Shown: positions 27,482 to 62,230 of the stretch, piece after piece
How the letters are laid out: each line of letters starts with the position of its first letter
Position numbering within the stretch: position 1 is the stretch's first letter
Assembly: GCA_033065855.1 (NCBI GenBank)
Contig: JAVXUO010003051.1
Coordinates: 124,001-188,000 of the forward strand
DNA: 64,000 nucleotides
Origin: Escallonia rubra
Lineage: Eukaryota; Streptophyta; Magnoliopsida; Escalloniales; Escalloniaceae
Reading direction: 5' to 3'
Notes under the pieces: generated by a model
What the model saw: the letters and a program-made list of their open reading frames with translations, nothing else
The model's database searches: none
What the model was told of the DNA's origin: nothing
Position numbers and translations under genes: made by a program

Positions 27482-27495
27482 GGCTACAAGAAAAA

Positions 27496-27880
27496 GGACC
27501 TTTAGCGACGGACACTTCCGTCGCTAAAAGTCTGACATCCGTCTGAAAAACGTTTTAGCGACGGACACCCCGTTGCTAAAACTTCGTTGCCTACAACCCC
27601 GTCTCTAAAAGTTTTGTGACGGAATTTTTCAATATGTCGCCTAAAGTTACCTTCAACGACGGACATACAAATACAATTTGCGACGGAATTTTGTCCCTAA
27701 TTCTATCTTCAGTATTTTAATTTATTTTCTTTTTTCGAAAATAATTTATTACCTAAAATATTTAGCAAAGAAATTCCGTCGCTAAACGTTTGTCGTTAAA
27801 ACTTTAGCGACGGAATTTTTGTCACTAAAAGTCGTTCATTTAATAATAGTTAGACTATTAGCGACGGAATATAGTCTGTC
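27496..27880. repeat. CACTA left subterminal repeats
   Basis: About ten copies of TTAGCGACGGA or its complement TCCGTCGCTAAA, spaced 15-60 bases apart. In known CACTA elements such subterminal arrays are bound by the transposon DNA-binding protein. Confidence 0.8.
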
Positions 27881-28058
27881 ACTAAAAAGTCAAACTAATT
27901 TAAAAAAAAAAATCATTTTTAATACCTAAATCTATAATCACAATCCAACAATTCACAGTCAAATAATCACAATCCAACAATAAAATGTATACAAAATTCA
28001 GGAGGGCACGGGAGCGGGGTACATTAGTAGAGTATAGGAGGGGAGTACAAGTCGGGCA

Positions 28059-28087
28059 GGCGGGGGGGGGGGGGGGGGGGGGGGGGT
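28059..28087. repeat. Poly-G run (about 26 G)
   Basis: A G homopolymer of about 26 inside the CACTA element. It has quadruplex potential, and its length is unreliable in any assembly. Confidence 0.9.
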
Positions 28088-28169
28088 GCACGGGAGCGGG
28101 ATACAAAGAGCTAGCTAGGAGGGGAAGGGCTGATCAGGGTTCAGCGTGTTCTGGATCTAATGGGTCCTG

Positions 28170-28398
28170 CTAATCGTCCTCGTCCATGGGGGCACTGTGA
28201 TCCGGATCCGACTCGGCATGTCCAGTAGCAGTTCCCTATATGTAAAGGCACGTACACATTAATCTCGATAGCAATCGTATGTAGTGTTCACTAATTAAAC
28301 GTATATAGTGGTTGTACCTGATTATGCACCGTGATACTCCAATAAACCTTTGCAGCAAAGCGACGAACCTCGTCCTCATGTAACAACGAGCGCTCCAT
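28170..28398 (-). CDS. Possible two-exon C-terminal gene fragment in CACTA
   Basis: Minus-strand exon 1 (28,398-28,318, 27 codons) reads MERSLLHEDEVRRFAAKVYW and then SITVHNQ. An 82-bp GT...AG intron (28,317-28,236) follows, and exon 2 (28,235-28,170) reads GTATGHAESDPDHSAPMDED then D and a stop. The phase is kept across the intron, the donor is CAG|GTAC and the acceptor TATAG. The upstream exon frame reaches a stop 17 codons before the ATG, so more exons may exist 5'. The acidic tail and its place in a CACTA element suggest the end of a transposon or captured gene. I do not recognise the family. Confidence 0.3.
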
Positions 28399-28472
28399 GG
28401 TCGATGTCTGCGTCTGTGGAGTTGCAAGGGGGTGGGGAAGCTCCTATCACGGCACATGCAATCATACCGAGG

Positions 28473-28490
28473 AGGCCGCGTACGCGGCCT
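28473..28490. repeat. 18-bp perfect palindrome at the edge of the left arm
   Basis: AGGCCGCGTACGCGGCCT is its own reverse complement. It stands just outside the AATTAACCC-rich outer end of the left gene-fragment arm. Confidence 0.9.
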
Positions 28491-28559
28491 AATTAAAACT
28501 AATTAACCCTAATTAAACTTTAGTTTACAATAATTATTCCTACTTAAACCGAACTAACT

Positions 28560-29350
28560 CCGATTAGCCCAAATTAAAATTGATGAACCCTAATTAACAT
28601 TAATTAACCCTAATTTAATCTCTAATTAGCCCTGATCACCGCTGATTAACCTAATTAAATCCTGATTGTCCTGATAAATCATAGACAAACCCTAATTAAA
28701 CCCAATTAGTGTAATTGACTGTAATGTATTCTAATTAGGCTCAACTAGCCCTAAGTAGCCCGAATTAGCACGAATTAATCCCTGATTAACACTAATTGAG
28801 TCTAATTAAACGCAATTAACTGTAATCAACCCTAAATAGCTTGAATTACCCTAATTACCCCTAATTAACGCATTAACTCGGCATGTTCACCTTAATTAGT
28901 TATTATCTATTTATGTTCGGTACAAAATGTTTTGGTTATAGTGAACTTGAGAGGAGAAAATCATCATTCCTAAATCCTTTAATATCTAATGATCCACCAA
29001 ATTGGGATTCTCAAGTAAACCTGGTGCTTTTGGTTGTTAAGTAATGGACTCAAAAACATTTTTTAGCTCGTCATGTTGAACCATCTCGTCTAAGATCTTA
29101 TCTTCTAGGGCCTCAAATAACACTTTTGGCTCGCAACTCTCCATGTCTACAGAAGAGAAGACTTTCTGAGACAAAAGATATTTCTCAGCCTGTCGCAGAC
29201 ATTTCCTGCCCTCCATTGTTCCTGAGGTAATTAGATGGTAAATATACACAGTTTTCTTCAGACTGATCTCATATCCCCGACATATGGCTTGCCTTTCAAC
29301 TGATGGATTGCAACCAATATCAAGCAACACAAATCTCGACGGCTCAACCA
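28560..29350 (-). pseudogene. Captured CLASSY-like SNF2 gene 3' end, left arm of the inverted repeat
   Basis: The minus-strand frame 29,387-29,037 encodes the C-terminus of a SNF2-family remodeler of the CLASSY/DRD1 group, which in plants brings RNA polymerase IV to target loci for RNA-directed DNA methylation. Visible features are CNPSVERQAI followed by a degenerate helicase motif VI (RGYEISLKK where RAYRIGQK is usual), then VYIYHLITSGTMEG, LSQKVFSS, EDKILDEMVQHDELK and FESIT. The stop after FESIT stands where the right arm has TAC, so the tail (QPKAP...) has been cut. Helicase motifs I-V are absent. About 450 bases of gene 3' flank are included. It cannot encode a working remodeler. Confidence 0.75.
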
Positions 29351-29446
29351 AATTTATGCCCCACATAGCTTGCCTTTCAAACCTCATTTAGCTCGAGTTA
29401 GCCTTCATTAGCATTAACCCTATTTAGCTCGAATTAACTCTAATCG

Positions 29447-30250
29447 GCCCTTGTTGGGGCGTCGAGAGTTATTTTGCTTGATATTGGTTGGAACCCATCA
29501 GTTGAAAGGCAAGCCATATATCGGGAATACAAGATTGGTCAGAAGAAAACTGTGTATATTTACCATCTAATTACCTCAGGAACAATGGAGGCAAGAAATG
29601 TCTACGACAAGCTGAGAAAGACCTTTTGTCTCAGAAAGTCTTCTCTTCTGCAGAGATGCAGATTTGCGAGCCAAAAGTGTTATTTGAAGTCTCAGAAGAT
29701 AAGATTTTATACGAGATGGTTCAACAAGACGTGCTATGAAAAATTTTTGAGTCCATAACTTACCAACCAAAAGCACCGGATTTACTTGAGAATTCTGATT
29801 TGGTGGATCGTTAGGTATTAAAATATTTAGGAATGATGATTTAATTTTTCTGCTCAAGTTCACTATAACCAAATCATTTTGTACTGAACCTAAATAGATA
29901 ATAGCTAATTAAGGTGAAAATGCCGAGTTAATGTGTTAATTAGGGGCAATAATTCGAGCTATTTAGGGTTGATTATAGTTAATTGCATTTAATTAGACTC
30001 AATTCATGTTATTCAGGGATTAATTTGAGCTAATTTAGGCTACTTAAGGCTAGTTGAGCCTAATTAGAACATATTATAGTTAATTACCCTAATTGGGTTT
30101 AATTAGGGTTTGTTTACGATTTATCAGGACAATCACGATTTAATTAGATAATCGGCGTTAATTAGGACTAATTAGAGATTAAATTAACAGTAAATTAGGG
30201 TTGATTAATGTTAATTAGAGTTAATCATTTTTTATTTGGGCTAATTAGGG
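29447..30250 (+). pseudogene. Captured CLASSY-like SNF2 gene 3' end, right arm of the inverted repeat
   Basis: This is the inverted partner of 28,560-29,350, about 85-90% identical by eye. It includes a 50-base perfect block (29,542-29,591 against 29,210-29,259). The frame from 29,474 reads LDIGWNPSVERQAIYREYKI and GQKKTVYIYHLITSGTME, closer to the normal motif VI than the left arm. A one-base deletion just after TMEA (near 29,592) breaks the frame. Downstream, in the restored phase, SITYQPKAPDLLEN and a TAG stop at about 29,812 look like the natural gene end. The 96-base spacer between the arms is short enough for a hairpin transcript. Confidence 0.75.
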
Positions 30251-30870
30251 CCGATTAGGGCTAATTCGAGCTAAATAGGGTTAATGCTAATGAGGGCTAA
30301 TTCGACCTAAATAGGGTTAACTAGAGTTAATTGGGTTTAATTAGACTTCTTTATTGTTAATTAGGGCTTAAGGAAGAGCTAATTAAGGTTAATTAGGATT
30401 GAGGCACTTTAGAATTCGTTGAGTTCATTCGTAAAGTTGATATTGTCCCACCTGTGATTGAGTCCAGGGTTTAAGTATATAATTAGGTTTAGATAGTATT
30501 TAGGATAATTAGGAATATATTAATAGGGTTTAATTAGAGTTTAGTTGGGGTTAATTGCGTTTACTTAGGGTTACTCAGGATTATTTAGGTTTAATAATAG
30601 TTAATTAGGTTTAATTAGGGTTGATCGGGGTTAACTAGGTTTAGTTAGGGTGAATTAGGATTAATTAGGGTTAATTATAGTTAACTAGGGTTACCTAGGG
30701 ATGTGTTAGGGGTTAATCGAGGTTAATCGGGGTTAATTATGTTTACTTAGGGTTAATCAAGGTTATTTAGGTCTAGTCAGGGTTACTTAAGGTTAATATT
30801 ACAGTTAATCGGGGTTAATTAGGATTGACCGGGATTAACTAGGTTTAATTAGGGTGAATCAGGGTTAATA
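29880..30870 (+). repeat. Degenerate TTAATTAGGG-type repeats
   Basis: GGTTAATTAGGG, AATTAGGGTTAATT and similar 10-12 base units fill nearly 1 kb. The inverted version fills 28,500-28,890. The first part belongs to the inverted repeat; 30,250-30,870 is extra. The unit is not the plant telomere TTTAGGG and is too variable to be telomeric. Confidence 0.75.
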
Positions 30871-31690
30871 CAATCTTCTTTTGAGATTCCGCTACGCATG
30901 CTCTATATTTCCAGAAATATACTCAATCAGACGTCAATAAAAGTAGCACATCCAAGAAAGTAACCAGTAGAAATCAAGAAATGGGCCCTAGTCATTAAGT
31001 AAATAGACACGAAACGCCAAAAAAGTAACTTAGAAATACTTGCGAGATCAAGGCGGTCACATTAGTTTTACAACTCATAAACGTTATTCTAGAACCACGT
31101 ACCAAAATTTCAGCATGACTTGATACTAAGCAACTAAAAAAACATTTCAACCTTCCAATCTTAAAACGAAATGACCGAACATGCTGAAGCTCAAGTACAT
31201 GGAGAATTCTAATGGCAAGTTTGAACAGTAACCTAACTCGTAAGCAACTATATTGAATTTTAATTACCTAATGTGATGTGCAATTAGTTAATTTTGGTTT
31301 ACTTGAGAAAGATGCGCACTATGTGCCATATTGACGTTTAAACTAAAATGAGTCTGAATAGATCGTAAACAATCCGCATTTAATCAATTTCCAAACAAGA
31401 AGAACACCAATATAATGTGTTTCCCAAATGAAAATTAATGTTTAATTACCTAATTTGATATGCAATTAACTATGAAAAATGAAATTAAGTCACATATTTC
31501 AATCCAATTAGGTCACAAATCTTAATCAACAATCTGAAATGATCAATCTAACAATTTGAAGTGCTCAATTAACAACCTAAAATCTTTAATCAATCAACAA
31601 CTTAAAATTCCTTCATGAATACCCAAACCAGTGCATAATCTTTTGTACGTACATGTAACTATACATTAACATTTAAACACATACATTAAA
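30871..31690. other. CACTA interior without recognised gene
   Basis: AT-rich sequence with repeated AATTACCTAAT, CAATTA and TCAATCAACAA motifs. No domain-bearing frame on either strand. Confidence 0.5.
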
Positions 31691-31945
31691 CCAAAATTAG
31701 GGCAAAATGGACGTACCGGCGGTGGCGACAGCAGTGGTGGCGCGGCAGTGGAGGCCCTAATTTGCATAGGAACAGTAGCTTTGCACGGTGTCGTAGGGGG
31801 CTGTCACACGGGGGGGGGGGGGGCGTCGCCGAAAGGGGGGTTGTCGTTGAAGGGGGGTCACCGGGGGAAGAAATTGGGGGTGAGTGAGAACCAAAGAGAG
31901 AGAGAGAAAGAAAGACGGGGAGAGAGAAATAAGGGTTTTTTTTAA
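31691..31945 (+). other. GGC/GGTGG-rich stretch before the right CACTA end
   Basis: GGCGGTGGCGACAGC-like sequence, a run of about 14 G (31,811-31,824), then GAGAGAGAAAGAAAG. The second CACTA end (49,380-49,750) has the same arrangement on the opposite strand, so it is part of the element family. Its open frame is low-complexity. Confidence 0.5.
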
Positions 31946-31949
31946 TAAC

Positions 31950-32350
31950 AGAACTTTTAGCGACGGATATATTCTGTCTCTAAAAGTCCGTCGCTTAAGT
32001 CAACACTTCTAGCGACGAAAGTTTTAGCGACAAAATACTTCGTCGCGAATGGCTACCTTGTGGAGTTTTAGTGACAGAAATTTTAGCGACGGAACACTTC
32101 CGTTGCTAAAACATTTTTACCAAATTTTAAAAAAATCGGCCGAAAATAGGAAAATTTTAAAAACCTTTTAGCGACGGTAAATCCATCGCTAAAAAACCGT
32201 TGGTAAAACAACGTCGGTGAAACTATTTACCCACGGAAGACCCGTCGCTAAAAGTTTTTAGCGACAGAGTTTTACCGACGGATTAATCCGTCAGTAAATC
32301 TACCTTTTAGCGACGAATTACGGTCCGTCGCTAAAATTTCGTCGGTAAAA
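31950..32350. repeat. CACTA right subterminal repeats
   Basis: Repeated TTTTAGCGACGGA / TCCGTCGCTAAAA motifs with variants (ACCGACGGA), mirroring the left end. Confidence 0.8.
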
Positions 32351-32367
32351 GGCTTTTTCTTGTAGTA

Positions 32368-34171: not shown

Positions 34172-36019
34172 ATGAATTTTAATCGTGGACCAGAAGATCC
34201 CTCCATATTATACGACCAAGAAACCATATTAGTATATCTGTCTGGAATGGACACGTAAGATACTTATTTTTTGTTTATTTTCTTATTCTCACAAACATTG
34301 TATACCGTTTTCTTTGCTTAAATTGTATTTATTAATTCGTAGGAAAGAGCACCCCTCAACAGTGTAGAAGTATCCAAACATTTCGGAACCTGGAAATTGA
34401 ACAAATTCCAAAAAAATTGTTGCGTGAAATTGGGTTTGGGGTTTTTATGCATGGGAATATCTTTCAACAAATTGATCGGAACTTAATAGGTGCCCTTGTT
34501 GAAAGGTGGAGAAGTGAAACAAATATGTTTCACTTCCCTCTTGGAGAGATGACAATAACCTTAGAAGATATAGGGTTCTTCTTAGGGTTATCGGTGACGG
34601 GGCGGCCGGTAATTGCTCCTCCGTCGAAAATAACAAATAAGAGAGCGGCTAGGGACTTCATTACTTTGATATCCGAGAGAGAATTTAGCACTGGTGGGAT
34701 AAAGTTGAGGTGGTTGATAGATAACTTCAAGGTTCTGCCAAAATACTACAAGGATGAGATGCTTGTGTTGCACACAAAGACCTTCCTGCTGTGGGTGATG
34801 GGGACAATTCTATTCCCAATGTCGTCGAAGAATACAATCATCACCAAATGTCTACCGTTGTTGGGTAACTTGCAAGAGGTTGCGGAGTATGCCTGGGGTG
34901 CAGTAACTCTTGCGTACTTGTATCGAGCATTGCACAAGGCAACGAGGCATGACTCCAAAGCTATATGTGCATGTCTTTCATTGTTGTAGGTATATCATAT
35001 AACTGCGGCATAATTACGTTTCCGCTATTTTTTTATTAGTCGGTACATAATAAATTTTGACGACACGACCCTAATATTTTCTCAAGTGTGGTCTTATGAA
35101 CACATTTCTACCGGCGCACCCAACCGTAGGGAGGGAACCGATAATGTGTGCCCTCGGTTGTGCGCTTGGGAGTACAACCGGAGGGAGAGCCACTACCCAA
35201 GGAGAGATGATCCCCATCACAACATTACATTCTATCGGGGGGAGTTCGACTCGCTATCTCCGGGCCAAATACGTTGGGCACCGTACGAACATTTGGAGCG
35301 ACGGGTGGCAGAGTCGTTCATCTTCACGCTCTTCGGGTTGCAACGTACACCACTGATCCACTTCTAGATCGTGGAATGGCAACTACCAGATCGCACAATG
35401 CATCATTTTGACTGCCTGCAGAGGTTATCAGCCGATGCCCAAGATATGAGGGTTAGCAGGAACCCACCGGGTGTCCCATGATTTGGCAAGGTGAATGCGC
35501 ACGAATTGTGGACAAACAAAATTCGACTTTGGGGTTCTTGGCAAGACACGATGTCGGCCATTGTGTCCGAGCCTGACCCCGTGATTAGCATTGAGCAGTA
35601 CAACAACTGGTACTACCGCATCACTCGAAAGAGAATAGCCCCAATAAGGTTTGAAAGAAGGCAGAAATACCACCCTAGGGGTCAGATCGATGAGCGATGG
35701 GCATATGATCTTGTAAGTTGCCCAACCACTGCATTTAATCGAATTAATGTTTACATTCAATCCCATTTTAGTTTGAAGTTACTTATTATCACTTTGGATG
35801 CAGGTCAATGACTCGCTCGCCTTCTTCAAGAAGCTGAGTGAGCAGAATGAAATGGTAGATGCCATGAAAGCAGAACTTCACACCCAGGCTGATGCATTGG
35901 CATTGGGCTGCGGGGATTTTTTGCACCGTTATACGGGACAACCTTTGGGCATCAACCTGGGAATGGATTATTCGGGGTGGCAGCCTCCCCATGTGAGCGA
36001 GGGATACGATGATCCCTAG
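34172..36019 (+). pseudogene. Plant mobile domain (PMD) gene remnant, MAIN-like
   Basis: A plant mobile domain of the MAIN/MAIL type, common in transposon-borne genes. Exon 1 (34,172-34,254) starts MNFNRGPEDPSILYDQ. After a GT...AG intron, exon 2 (34,343-34,989) has the domain core ALVERWRSETNMFHFPLGEM, TITLEDIGFFLGL and GRPV. Exon 3 (about 35,086-35,712) has WAPYEHL and IVEWQLPDR. After an intron (35,713-35,803), exon 4 ends at 36,019. In-frame stops are at 34,987 (TAG where CLSLLQ is usual), 35,365 and 35,479. The exon 1-2 junction is one base out of frame. The exon 3 acceptor reads CAAG|TG, which fits a lost AG. It is decayed. Confidence 0.75.
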
Positions 36020-36497
36020 GTACAAATTTCGAGGGTGAGCGAGGGAGTTGGTGGTCCCTCTGTAGCTGGGATGGGTGGTGCTTGGGGGCCACCATCGAGC
36101 ATAGGAATGCCTCATTGGGTGGAGTTCAGTGGTCCTTCGTTGGGGACTCAGAAGTTACACCCCTCTCTCGGAGTCAAGTCACACAAGACTTCAACTTTGC
36201 AAACTTCAATCTCCCTGAGGCACTGTCACTTGTCCCTTGGGCGGGGCCTTCTGGCCCCCTGGAGGGAAATATCCCCCTGTTGACTCCCCCCCCCCAGGGT
36301 AATATCCCCCTGTCTACGTGCCCCTCCGGAGGATAATATCCCCCGGTCGACCCCCCCTTCATTCTCGCTTATCCCAAAGGGCATCCGTTGAAGCCTTTAA
36401 AGCCAAAAAAATGCTGCCTAATCCACCAACGTTACTTTAACGCCCCCCCAAGCAACGAGCCACAAGTGGTGTGAACTGCCCAAATGACATGCATTAG
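36020..36497 (+). other. C-rich repeat stretch between the PMD and Ulp1 parts
   Basis: Contains three or so units of GGTAATATCCCCCTGT with C runs (36,270-36,355) and C8-type homopolymers. A splice acceptor-like GCATTAG stands at 36,491-36,497, so this may be an intron if PMD and Ulp1 form one gene. Confidence 0.45.
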
Positions 36498-37331
36498 AAT
36501 ATCTTGTGGGGCCGAATGTCCACCCTAGCTCCGGGGGCTTGGTTGAACGACACTGTGATCTCTGCCTACACCCAGCTTTTGAAGCGTCGGGGTTGGGACT
36601 TGCGGAATGCGTATCCCCGTGTTTTTTTGTTGGATGCGGTTTTTCATGGCATGCTCGTTGGAGAATGGGTCGATTTGGTCAAAAAGAGGGGGATGAAAAG
36701 CTTGATCCAGTGGAAACAGTCAGGTTCGCTCATTGCATTTCTAAATAGGGATAGTCCGGTGAGCGCCCGTGATGCGGACGTCTTCCTATTACCATTTTTT
36801 GGTAATAGGAACCAATGGTACTTGGTTATCTATGAACCAACTCACATGGTCGTATCGATCCTCGATAGTCTTCATGACTCCGCCATTGCGATGCCCGTGA
36901 ATGATCTTTTCAAATACCAATTGGATGCTATGGTAATCTTGCGATTGTTGTTTTATGCTTATTGTAATTTGCTTATTGTAATTGTTAACTCGTAGTTTAT
37001 GCCGTTTTTTATTTCTCCACAGGATCTGTTTTGTGCCATGGTCCACTCTATCCGAAAACTAAAAGTACCGGGAAAGTCGAAGCTCGAACTTCGATTAAAG
37101 AGACGGAGGTCCAAGCAAGCTAATCATTCAGACTGCGGCGTCTTCGTCTGCATGTACATGGACTACATTTGTCGGCGTGATAGTTTCAAGGCGGTCGTCT
37201 GGAGCGAAGCAGACATAGAAGCCTTTAGATATAGAATAGCTTGGCAAATTCATAGCGGCCGGCCTAGAGCAGTTATGAATATTGTACATCCGGCTAACGA
37301 CGAGAATCCGGCTCAAGATGAGGCCCAATGA
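36498..37331 (+). CDS. Ulp1-like (C48) cysteine protease domain, two exons
   Basis: Exons 36,498-36,932 and 37,023-37,331 join in phase across a 90-bp GT...AG intron (ATG|GTAATC; CCACAG|GAT). They give about 247 open codons ending QDEAQ. The Ulp1 pattern is clear: LAPGAWLNDTVI near the start, DADVFLLPFF, then NQWYLVIYEP, ILDSL (catalytic Asp) and KQANHSDCGVFV (catalytic Gln and Cys). Where the catalytic His is expected (HW) there is Gln-Trp, so activity is doubtful. Ulp1 domains remove SUMO-like modifiers in host proteins. Fused or adjacent to a PMD or a Mutator transposase they are known transposon cargo. The first ATG in frame is 36,516. Unlike the PMD part there is no stop. Confidence 0.75.
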
Positions 37332-47039: not shown

Positions 47040-49019
47040 TGTCACGACCCGAACCCACAGTTGCTCCCATGAGCTAGGTCTGTGACTGGTCACAGACCCA
47101 TTGGACTCTTACCAAGAGCTCTGTCAGGTCTTATTTGTTAAAACCAATACAATAGCAGCAAAACTAAAACTTTTACGACTTCAAATATATTTTCATTTCC
47201 AGTTTTTGTATGAAACTTCTTAAAGCAACACTTACGTAGAACTCAAACTCATCTAATGCAGTCTCCAGAGTTTCATCCTAAAATTTCAATCATACGCTCG
47301 TCGCGATCGCCTTTCATCCTGAAATGATAAGCAAGGGGTGACTTTAACTTACTCAGTAAGTAACCAATGACTCAACTAGCTAGACCATAGCATGTCAGAA
47401 AATAACTCACTTTACAAATTAGCAACTTTACGAGATAACATCAAGGAGTAAATAATCATTTCTCAAAGCAAAAAATGAGAAGTTATCTGTAAAATGCACT
47501 ACGGTATAAGGAAAAATTCTGAGGGCATAAAAATCATAAGCACAAAAACGTCTTAACAAGAGAGTTCCAATCGAAGATCAACTCAAACGGTATGTTGCGG
47601 TCAGCACTTTGGTCCCATTGACTTGGACTCAAAATCCCACCTCGGGATGATAATCATTGTGGAATCAAAGGCGACCATGAGTAACAGTACTACCCGTCAA
47701 CATTCTGTCGAGTTGATAAGGACCCAAAATCTAACTTTTTCCCGTAAGATATGGGGCACATCAACCGAATAAGCAAAAACAACCCATTTCATTTATCACA
47801 AATATAATCCTTAAATCACTGATGGTCAAACCATCTCACGATATTTCGTTAGTTTTCCAAAATAATTCATATCCACAATAATGTTAACACCAAAAAAAAT
47901 CTCACTTGCACTAAGCATTTCAAATCCAAATTCCATTAAAATATCAAACAAAATATCGGTTACATGTTGGTCCGGTTTTAACGAGAAATAAGTATCGCTA
48001 CAAGCTTTTTGGCAAAATTCCTTTATTCAAGGCAAAAGTAGATAAACATAACTAAATAGTTCATTGCTGATAAACATTGCTTTTCAAAAATAGATAAACA
48101 TATACGCTTTATATAAGAACACTAGTTGGATCAAGAGGTCACTTACACGAACCGCTAAACGAATCCGAAGTTTCTTTGAGTTCGATCCCAATCCTCTTCT
48201 ACCGAATCTAAAAAGATGAACCAGTGGAAAATTAATTTTTGTAGCATATAAATGTCTCGTAGGGTAAAAAGTGCCTCAATTTTTATCCTTTCCCACTTAT
48301 CAGTTCATAACCTCTTGTAATGGCTAGCTAACCTAACCCGATATCAAGATTTTACTCTAGCCCCCAAAAGTGCATTTATGTCACAAGTTTCTTAATTTTG
48401 AGAGTGTACTAGCATCGTCTCTCAATTTCTATCATCCCCAACGCTCAATATGCATGTCCACTAAATTTTCCACCGGGTATGAAAAATTACCAAAACACCC
48501 TTTGATGTATGTAAAATTTTCAAAATATCCCCAAGCGGCCATTGCACCATAAAAATCCCAAAAACAGTTCAAAACATCTTTTTAAACAAACTACACTGGT
48601 CTTCAGACTAAAAAGTCCTTTGGGGGATTTTATGCTCAAAACCCTTATTAGATACTGAAATGAGCGCTAAATGGCAAACATTGCAAAAAATAGCTAACAA
48701 CACTGAAACGCCAAAACAATTTAGGCATGTCTCAACAGCACAAGGTCACTATAAATTTTCAAGACAAAAATAGTTAGGTTTGCTATTTTAAATAAATTGA
48801 GAACCCTTTTTACAAATAAAATCATTTAACGCCCTTCATGGATTCGAGAAAATCCCAGAAAATTTCAAATTGTAGGTCTTACAAACTAATAGGTGCTATT
48901 GTTTTATACTTAGCCAAATCATATTGGAACAGGCCTTTAAAAATTTAACTAGGAACTACTAAAAGCTTTTAGCGACATTTTTCTGCTCCTCAAGAACCCT
49001 AACCCTAATTTCTTGACCT
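47040..49019 (-). repeat. Chromovirus-like LTR fragment related to 4,973-7,741
   Basis: The plus strand starts TGTCACGACCCGAACCCACA, the LTR 3' terminus in minus orientation. It shares blocks with 4,973-6,900: GGTATGTTGCGGTCAGC, CAACAGTACT-like, GATATGGGGCACA and the later CGAATCCGAAG/CGATTCTGATT region. It is more diverged than the two LTRs near 5-10 kb are from each other. The LTR start is missing, and a CACTA end abuts it at 49,020. Confidence 0.6.
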
Positions 49020-49793
49020 CACTACAAGAAAAACAGTCTTTAGCCGTCGATTTTTAGCGACGGACAACAATCCGTTGCTAAAATTTACTTTTAGCGATAG
49101 AAAAGACCGTCGTTCAAGATCCGTCAGTAACTGTTTTTACCGATGGAGAGTCTCTGTTGGTAAACATTTTTAGGGACGGATATTTACAACGAACTTTTAC
49201 CGACGGAATATCTGTCGCTAAATTTTTTTCCTAATTTTCTATTTTCGATCTAATGTTTTAAATATTTTTTTAAAATATTTTAATGACGGGTTTTTGGCGA
49301 CGAAACATTTTCCGTCGCTAAAAGTCATTTCAAAATTTTCAAAAATGACTTTTAGCGACGGTATTTTCCAGTCGCTAAAAGGTCTTACTATTAACCCTAA
49401 TTTCTTCTCTCTTTACTCCCCGTTGCTTTCTCTTTTCTCTCTCTATTTTTGCCGGCGCCATCCCCCGTCCTCTGTCCACAGCCATCGTCCGTCTTTCGTC
49501 CACTACCACCGTCTGCATCCCGTCATCGTCCCCTGTCCACCGCCACCATCCTCGTCGCCAACCCATCCCTGCCATCGTCCCCATCCCCGCCACCGTCCTC
49601 GTCGCCTGTCCATCCCTGCCACCGTCGTCATCGCCAGCATCTCCGGCCACACCACCACTGCCTAAAAGAGAAGCCACCAATACCGTGGCCTACCACTGCT
49701 CCTGCCACATGTAGATCTGCCATGCACTACCACCTCTCACCGCCCTTGCTCCAGTTGTATGTATTTAATTTTTTTATCATTATAATCACATGT
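49020..49793. mobile_element. CACTA element left end, truncated by a family-B LTR
   Basis: Starts with the canonical CACTACAAGAAAAACAG, followed by TTTTAGCGACGGA / TCCGTCGCTAAA subterminal repeats to about 49,380. Then comes a TTCTCTCTCTATTTTTGCCG and CCGCCACC-rich part, as in the right end of the 27.5-32.4 kb element but inverted. The sequence is cut at 49,793 by TGTTCCCAACC. The rest would lie beyond the nested insertions, outside the window. Confidence 0.8.
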
Positions 49794-60440: not shown

Positions 60441-60872
60441 GCCTTGGCCTTCCTCCCTCGGTTCTTCACTTTTTGTGCAAAGTCCTTTCCGTACTTTTTT
60501 CACTTCGTACGTTTCGTACATGACTTTAACACCTTGTTCGTCACATGGGTACGATTCATGTCGACATGCTCGTCGTAACGTAACTTTCGGATTTCCCATT
60601 GCTCATCAAAACACTTACCGTCGGTGCGCCTGAAGTTCACGGAAAGGGGGAGTGGCCTTGGCCTCCCTTCATGGGAGTTGGCCATTGGCCTTGGCCACTC
60701 CCTAGGGTCGGCCTCGGCCTCCCCAAGGGGTCGGCCTCGGCCTCCCCAGGGGTCATGGCCTTGGCCTTCCCCCAATGTTCGGCCTATGGTCTCCCCTCCC
60801 GCGCGCACTTATTTCCTCGAGTCTTCGCACCTCCGCGATGTTTACGAACGTCCGTACGTTAACCTGGCAACG

Positions 60873-61400
60873 TCCGTCGTGCCTCAACCTCGCGACGTCC
60901 GTCGTGCCTCAACCTCACGACGTCCGTTCGTGCATCAACCTCGCGACGTCCGTCGTGCATCAACCTCGCGACGTCCGTTCGTGCATCAACCTCGCGACGT
61001 CCGTCGTGCATCAACCTCGCGACCTCAACCTCACGACGTCCGTTCGTGCATCAACCTCGCGACGTCCATCGTGCATCAACCTCGCGACGTCCGTTCGTGC
61101 ATCAACCTCCCGACGTCCGTCGTGCATCAACCTCGCGACGTCCGTCGTGCATCAACCTCGCGACGTCCGTTCGTGCATCAACCTCGCGACGTCCGTCGTG
61201 CATCAACCTCGCGACGTCCGTCGTGCATCAACCTCGCGACGTCCGTTCGTGCATCAACCTCGCGACGTCCGTCGTGCATCAACCTCGCGACGTCCGTCGT
61301 GCATCAACCTCGCGACGTCCGTCGTGCATCAACCTCGCGACGTCCGTCGTGCATCAACCTCGTGACATCCGTTCGTGCATCAACTTCGTGACCTCCGTCG
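60873..61400 (+). repeat. B4 block 2: about 20 units of 25-26 bp
   Basis: The unit contains CGCGACGTCCGTCGTGCATC followed by AACCT, with one-base length variants (CCGTTCGTG). Open frames over it are repeat translation, not genes. Copy B3 has only about two such units. Confidence 0.95.
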
Positions 61401-61589
61401 TCTGTCACCGCACACCGCTCCCGCGATGCCCATCGCCCAAAGTCACGCATTATCACCGAATGACCCGTCACCGACGACCGCATACCATAACTACCAACTT
61501 TGTCATTACTATATGTTGCATTCATTATCTTGTTATGACAGGCACACTCAGCTCACATCTCGTCTTCGGGACACCCGATGCGCGCCCTT

Positions 61590-62230
61590 GCGCCATCGTC
61601 ATGATACGTGCCCCCGGCACCAACTGTTGCTCCGCGACGTTCTTCGCCGCGCCCTTGCACCATCGTCATGATACGTGCCCCCGGCACCAACTGTTGCTCC
61701 GCGACGTTCGTCGCCGCGCCCTTGCGCCATCGTCATGATACGTGCCCACGGCACCAACTGTTGCTTCGCAATGTTCGTCGCCGCGCCCTTGCGCCATCGT
61801 CATGATACGTGCCCACGGTACCAACTGTTGCTCCGCGACGTTCGTCGCCGCGCCCTTGCGCCATCGTCATGATACGTGCCCACGGTACCAACTGTTGTTC
61901 CGCGACGTTCGTCGCCGCGCCCTTGCGCCATCGTCATGATACGTGCCCACGGCACCAACTCTTGCTCCGCGACGTTCGTCGCCGCGCCTGCGTGCATTCT
62001 CATGATACGTGCCCCGGCACCAAGTATTGTCTCCGCGACGATCGTCGCCGTGCCTACGTGCATTCTCATGATACATTCCCCGACACCAAGTATTACTCCG
62101 CGACGTTCGTCGCCGCGCCCGTGCGCCAGTCTCATCATACGTGCCCCGGCACCAAATATTGCTCCGCGACGTTCGTCGCCGCACCACTTTCACAACACGT
62201 GCCCCAGGCACCAGGTATTGTCTCGTGCTA
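61590..62230 (+). repeat. B4 block 3: about nine units of 67 bp
   Basis: Units carry CATCGTCATGATACGTGCCC, GGCACCAACTGTTGCTCCGC and GACGTTCGTCGCCGCGCCC. The first six are exactly 67 bp apart; later ones are more diverged. Confidence 0.95.

Follow-up and report, generated by a model that had tools for sequence, protein, structure and literature searches.

In a 64,000-nucleotide stretch of the genome of Escallonia rubra (contig JAVXUO010003051.1, positions 124,001 to 188,000; hereafter the window), we have characterized a long inverted repeat located within a non-autonomous CACTA transposon. Both arms of the repeat stem from the 3' terminus of a CLASSY1/2-like host gene. The reading that we consider best, with a probability of roughly two in three, is that of a decayed CACTA family in which the captured gene end gave rise to an inverted repeat, which spread while its arms were nearly perfect and which by now persists as a passive relic. 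On comparison of DNA sequences, the CACTA identity of the family, the CLASSY-like origin of the fragment, the shared junction of the capture, the high copy number and the near-perfect state of the hairpin at the time of its spread can be regarded as established.

Anatomy of the inverted repeat

The repeat consists of a left arm of 786 bp (28563–29348, with the CLASSY fragment in sense on the minus strand) and a right arm of 793 bp on the plus strand (29453–30245), separated by a spacer of 104 bp (29349–29452, plus strand), and it thus agrees with a preliminary description of this DNA that had noted two opposed arms of about 800 bp with a short spacer. In a gapped alignment of the arms, 693 of 784 columns are identical (88.4%), and this identity is even along their length, with values of 88.0% for the coding portion, 89.6% for the 3'-flank and 89.3% for the minisatellite. 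The perfect blocks of 50 and about 27 bases described previously were recovered as exact inverted matches of 50 nt (48 nt in the gapped alignment) and 28 nt, the former being the longest found between the arms, compared to a maximum of 20 nt over 200 single-base shuffles of the same stretch. As a signal of constraint the perfect block was rejected, since a run of at least 48 arises in 14% of simulations in which the mismatches are placed at random.

Both arms encode the same C-terminus, and neither is open to the ancestral stop. The CLASSY1/2-like coding end of the left arm (28986–29357, minus strand; ancestral stop at 28986–28988) is interrupted by a premature TAA at 29037–29039, and that of the right arm (29450–29814, plus strand; ancestral stop at 29812–29814) by a deletion of one nucleotide near 29590 and a TGA at 29737–29739. 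The repeat extends beyond the gene fragment into a 3'-flank and a 10-bp minisatellite that are common to both arms. On the left side, the flank (28895–28985, minus strand) matches the 3' flank of the host gene and is followed by the minisatellite in degenerate form, which prolongs the arm (28488–28894, minus strand). Beyond the right arm, a minisatellite of the TTAATTAGGG type (30247–30869, plus strand) begins with a segment (30247–30318) that sits just outside the outer end of the arm and whose inverted copy fills the spacer (29380–29451; 65 of 72 positions identical), an arrangement that may have originated from template switching during break repair.

The predicted RNA fold of the region 28500–30320 has an energy of –1109 kcal/mol, compared to –394 ± 8 kcal/mol for 24 shuffles, and 761 of the 780 pairs in the minimum-energy fold link one arm to the other. 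No known RNA family scored above its gathering threshold between 27000 and 33000.

The surrounding CACTA element

The window copy of the element extends from 27482 to 32367 (plus strand) and carries the ends GGCTACAAGAAA and TACTACAAGAAA, CACTA-like termini whose terminal bases have degraded so that the first bases are altered (GGCTAC, TACTAC). Subterminal repeats of the TTTAGCGACGGA type are found on the left (27501–27908) and on the right (31940–32335), and there are 24 matches to this type in the whole window, six of them in the left block, against 0.24 expected by shuffling. No target duplication is recognisable at this copy (flanks CTA/AGT), and no transposase or other domain gave a Pfam match above cut-off among the eight ORFs scanned, which come from 14 ORFs of at least 60 amino acids within or overlapping the element. 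Non-autonomous members are usual in the CACTA superfamily.

The classification is carried by relatives of the element in the same genome. Twenty copies were fetched as the next best matches to the window arm by score, a choice that favours its subfamily, and in 14 of these the alignment with the window element starts at its left terminus. Thirteen of the 14 left ends read CACTAC (with CACCAC in L018 as the exception) and four of the five paired right ends read GTAGTG (with GTACTG in L026). A matching 3-bp target site duplication was present in all five copies for which both ends could be placed (L009, L015, L023, L024 and L026; in L015 the outer of two possible left ends was taken), which together with the CACTA-type termini assigns the family to the CACTA elements and bears out the earlier proposal that the repeat lies inside such an element. 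Upstream of an inverted-repeat copy, we observed an ORF (L013:125–832) that presumably resembles the transposase-associated domain of CACTA elements and that might belong to an autonomous relative.

The window also contains other repetitive features. The region 34336–37330, which encodes a plant mobile domain (Pfam PMD, 3e-45) and, in a second ORF, a Ulp1-like peptidase (C48, just below cut-off), is a separate mobile element flanked by TGTAGCGGACGG-type repeats at about 33.6–33.9 kb and 37.6–38.4 kb. A third CACTA end at 49018–49448, whose CACTACAAGAAA terminus is intact and which has related subterminal repeats, adjoins a series of retrotransposon-like ORFs, and a satellite-like array at 60579–61738 contains repetitive ORFs in several frames ('RRPSCINLATSV' variants).

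Origin of the captured fragment

The preliminary description had assigned both arms to a CLASSY-type SNF2 protein. In Pfam, the reading frame of the left arm found no match above the cut-offs, and among solved structures its best matches are RAD54 (E 3e-9) and ATRX (1e-8). A search of the genome itself (566 Mb assembly) with the tail of Arabidopsis CLSY1 identified two near-identical places with a long stop-free frame (55% identical to the query; contigs C2428 and C1563) and a third, more distant open relative (42%; C2685). The first two, L029 and L030, are 98.7% identical over 3.4 kb and are probably alleles or haplotigs of one gene. Within L029 this gene is intact, with a frame that is open for 631 codons to the stop, and its translation contains a SNF2 helicase sequence followed by a CLASSY1-type tail as found in the arms.

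Against the two arms, the tail of CLSY1 scored 100 and 112 bits, that of CLSY3 66 and 71 bits and that of DRD1 47 and 54 bits, and the label CLASSY depends on these reference tails of AtCLSY1, CLSY3 and DRD1. An origin from another SNF2 subfamily, such as DRD1, RAD54 or ATRX, could draw on the structural matches to RAD54 and ATRX and on the provisional nature of the CLASSY and DRD1 reference tails used for comparison. We nevertheless consider it very improbable, as the gene matching the whole coding part of the arms has a CLASSY1-type tail and the tails of DRD1 and CLSY3 score below that of CLSY1 in both arms. The earlier assignment is therefore upheld, now with an intact CLASSY1/2-like gene as the host counterpart.

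Copy number and history of the family

When a portion of the left arm served as DNA query, 39 of the best 40 of 228 candidates show both arms in the same order. A protein search, of which the best 150 of 469 candidates were considered, located 113 loci beyond the three places of host genes, at least 34 of them with both orientations among the scored matches. With four loci added by the DNA search, there are at least 117 fragment loci among the matches listed, including that of the window, a count that seemingly includes some loci twice, as haplotypes, and in which a small number of weak matches may stem from other SNF2 genes. These searches suggest that the genome holds about a hundred or more remnants of the family. 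Further CACTA copies with the same inverted repeat, the search for which had been recommended in the preliminary description, are thus abundant, and all five copies that could be completed are CACTA-ended.

The state of the repeat during its spread can be approached from column majorities. Over 21 copies, the majority sequences of the two arms are identical at 766 of 786 positions (97.5%), with a perfect run of 248 bp and with coding ends that are open in both arms, and when 40 copies are used, the coding parts agree at 342 of 359 positions. Since the arm majorities are about 97% identical, the family spread while the hairpin was near-perfect.

Four loci (L055–L058) contain a longer capture, in which the host flank extends from 2587 to approximately 2909, numbered on the reverse of L029. 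In L055, L056 and L057 one arm reaches back to host position 1412, and in L058 the arms reach back to 1471 and 1534. These loci and the window family lack the same 688 bases of the host 3' flank, and the junction is identical in L055–L058 and in the arm majority of the 21 copies, which together points to one capture. An intron in the 3'-UTR or a cDNA origin was considered as an explanation of the 688-base gap, at whose junction neither an unambiguous splice nor a neat deletion is apparent. The outer limit in the host 3' flank differs between the two subfamilies, being 2909 in both arms of L055 and about 2666, followed by minisatellite, in both arms of the window family. Because the arms share this limit within each subfamily, either the repeat formed anew or a rearrangement affected the two arms jointly.

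A search with the tail of the element placed 16 of the best 40 of 222 candidates within 6 kb of a listed CLASSY-fragment locus. Four of the other 24 places were inspected over 2.3 kb each: L061 and L062 contain a single arm of CLASSY sequence, L063 has kept the outer pieces and lost the middle, and in L060 the left interior is joined to the minisatellite, with no match to CLASSY. In some relatives, the complete hairpin was thus either lost or never present. At L059 (C1907:114600–117400), we observed four CLASSY pieces in alternating orientation, which constitute a double hairpin.

Similarity to the host gene and pairing potential

The identity of the arms to the coding end of the host gene, which the preliminary description had proposed to measure as a value that might turn out too low for pairing of siRNAs, amounts in ungapped comparison to 84.6% for the left arm of the window (of 356 positions) and 88.3% for the right arm (of 360) and is in our view high enough. 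Exact 21-mers of the host remain at 8 of 443 positions in the left and 21 of 442 in the right arm (coding part and 3' flank), 145 and 175 21-mers match with no more than two mismatches, and exact runs extend to at most 28 and 38 nt. With these exact and near-exact 21-mers, siRNAs from the window arms could in principle pair with the host mRNA. The arm majorities are closer to the host coding end, with 88.4% and 90.4% identity (of 363) and exact runs of 45 and 51 nt.

The host gene and the arm majorities differ at 16 of 240 first, 18 of 240 second and 47 of 238 third codon positions, and this excess at third positions indicates that much of the divergence arose in a working gene. The captured sequence may stem from a sister copy of today's host gene. 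The host coding end also contains a short in-frame tandem duplication that is absent from the arm majorities. Among the best 40 of 235 candidates, the best match to the host gene outside its own loci does not exceed 89%, so that no recent capture is seen among the matches listed.

Tests for maintenance of the hairpin

If the hairpin served a function, its arms or their pairing might be expected to be preserved among copies. The copies used here are best matches to the window arm and no random sample. The mean distance between copies is.099 and.108 for the left and right coding arms (21 copies),.085 for both the spacer (17 copies) and the tail (only five),.126 and.124 for the arm minisatellites (20 and 19 copies),.176 for the first interior segment (12 copies) and.20 and.28 for the ends (14 and 7 copies). 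Conservation of the coding arms thus exceeds that of the minisatellites, the first interior segment and the ends, but it does not exceed that of the spacer and the tail. In the ends, GCGACGG motifs are frequent, and mutation may be faster there.

Constraint on the coding sequence was rejected, with a dN of.109 and a dS of.177 between the window arms (Fisher P=.22) and near-equal substitution rates at the three codon positions after the spread (.074/.063/.071; 40 copies). In 21 copies, the arms within a copy appeared slightly more alike (P=.04 in one test, P=.08 in another) and shared derived bases numbered 92 versus 74.8 expected (P=.04). This weak signal of gene conversion or covariation between arms vanished with 40 copies, where the distance between left and right arms was.1530 within and.1533 between copies (P=.39) and 46 shared derived changes between arms of one copy were found versus 53.3 expected. 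Between the window arms, CG sites show transitions more often (13 of 60) than CHH sites do (37 of 404; P=.007), as in methylated DNA. With no signal for the maintenance of the hairpin or its pairing, passive capture, which the preliminary description had named as the null explanation, is favoured, at least for the time after the spread.

Discussion

The history that would best account for these observations begins with the capture, most likely once, of the last approximately 120 codons and the 3' flank of the host CLASSY1/2-like gene. A duplication, by fold-back or by template switch, would have made an inverted repeat of the captured fragment, and the family would then have multiplied, starting with arms of about 97% identity, to leave the hundred or more remnants estimated above. 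Read-through transcripts could have formed long double-stranded RNA to be diced into siRNAs of 21–24 nt, which would mainly silence the family itself and might have acted weakly on the mRNA of CLASSY or on its 3' end for as long as the arms still resembled the gene. Once the family had spread, the hairpin would no longer have been maintained, and the copy in the window would be a passive relic. The family could thus once have produced small RNAs against the host CLASSY gene, and to the idea of a maintained weapon we prefer the view that the captured hairpin was carried along by a successful CACTA family and is now in decay, possibly as a source of siRNAs.

CLASSY proteins recruit Pol IV to transposons, with CLSY1/2 acting together with SHH1 (PMC11603163), and the preliminary description had proposed that a transcript through the repeat could give siRNAs against the host CLASSY gene, as a counter-silencing device. 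Such siRNAs would lower the amount of CLASSY1/2-like protein, which would weaken the recruitment of Pol IV and RNA-directed DNA methylation and so permit the spread of the CACTA family. The repeat has the shape expected of such an anti-silencing hairpin, it belongs to a numerous family with at least 117 fragment loci among the matches listed, it was near-perfect when this family multiplied, and the similarity of its arm majorities to the host gene and the exact host 21-mers left in the window arms would suit such a role, as would the direct precedent of miR820 and OsDRM2 in rice CACTA elements (PMC3459959). Simple passive decay also does not predict that the arms were altered alike between the subfamilies (2909 vs about 2666). 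Against this proposal stand the conservation of the arms, which does not surpass that of spacer and tail, the absence of covariation within the 40 copies and the relatives L060–L063 in which part or all of the hairpin is missing. Moreover, siRNAs made from a transposon usually silence that transposon. We therefore regard a counter-silencing function as unlikely. The same doubt applies to the view that the family would have arrived at the strategy of miR820 a second time, independently and at a different point of the pathway, and a weapon that has decayed by now or that is still active in younger copies appears no more probable.

A further reading, which we hold to be less likely than not, is that the hairpin chiefly triggers the silencing of its own family and that its homology to CLASSY is incidental, a view that overlaps with our best explanation. 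It would resemble Mu killer of maize, a partial inverted duplication that silences MuDR by a proposed hairpin RNA route (PMC3440606), and the enrichment of transitions at CG sites is consistent with it, although such decay is usual for any methylated transposon. The family did spread despite its hairpin, and the arms hold no terminal sequence, so that their siRNAs would reach only members that carry the fragment.

At the level of titles and listings, we encountered no account of a transposon that bears a CLASSY hairpin in the open-access literature, which is weak evidence of absence, and no paper containing the motif VERQAISRA. As small RNA that is borne by a transposon and directed against the plant DNA-methylation machinery, only miR820 was found in these listings. 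If the hairpin did act against its host, it would represent a second such family, aimed at Pol IV recruitment and present in many copies, and it would suggest that the capture of silencing genes as hairpins is a repeatable route of escape. Even a passive family would offer a natural series of hairpins at varied stages of decay next to an intact target gene in the same genome, in which the onset of donor silencing by captured fragments is testable with ordinary small-RNA data.

The closest precedent is rice miR820, a fold-back within CACTA elements that targets and possibly originated from OsDRM2 and of which Nipponbare has five copies and a BB genome at least 18 (PMC3459959). Both cases involve a CACTA element with a fold-back that resembles a piece of a gene for RNA-directed DNA methylation and that has multiplied with the element. 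Here, in contrast, the gene is CLASSY1/2-like, the structure is a long hairpin of about 790 bp per arm instead of a miRNA precursor and the fragment loci are more numerous. A small RNA, target cleavage and co-evolution, which distinguish miR820, would be putative for the CLASSY hairpin. With Mu killer, it shares the partial inverted duplication as proposed source of long hairpin RNA and siRNAs, yet Mu killer duplicates transposase and terminal sequence and silences a transposon (PMC3440606), while here it is the transposon that bears part of a silencing gene of the host in inverted copy. As in Pack-TYPE and Pack-CACTA elements (PMC8903248, PMC13317346), a non-autonomous TIR element contains a captured fragment of a host gene, but here the capture is an inverted repeat and its source is a silencing gene. 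Finally, like the captured fragments of maize that were described in a review as siRNA reservoirs (PMC13317346), the fragments may act on their donor gene via siRNAs, with the difference that the donor in our case itself belongs to the siRNA pathway and that the fragment is already self-complementary.
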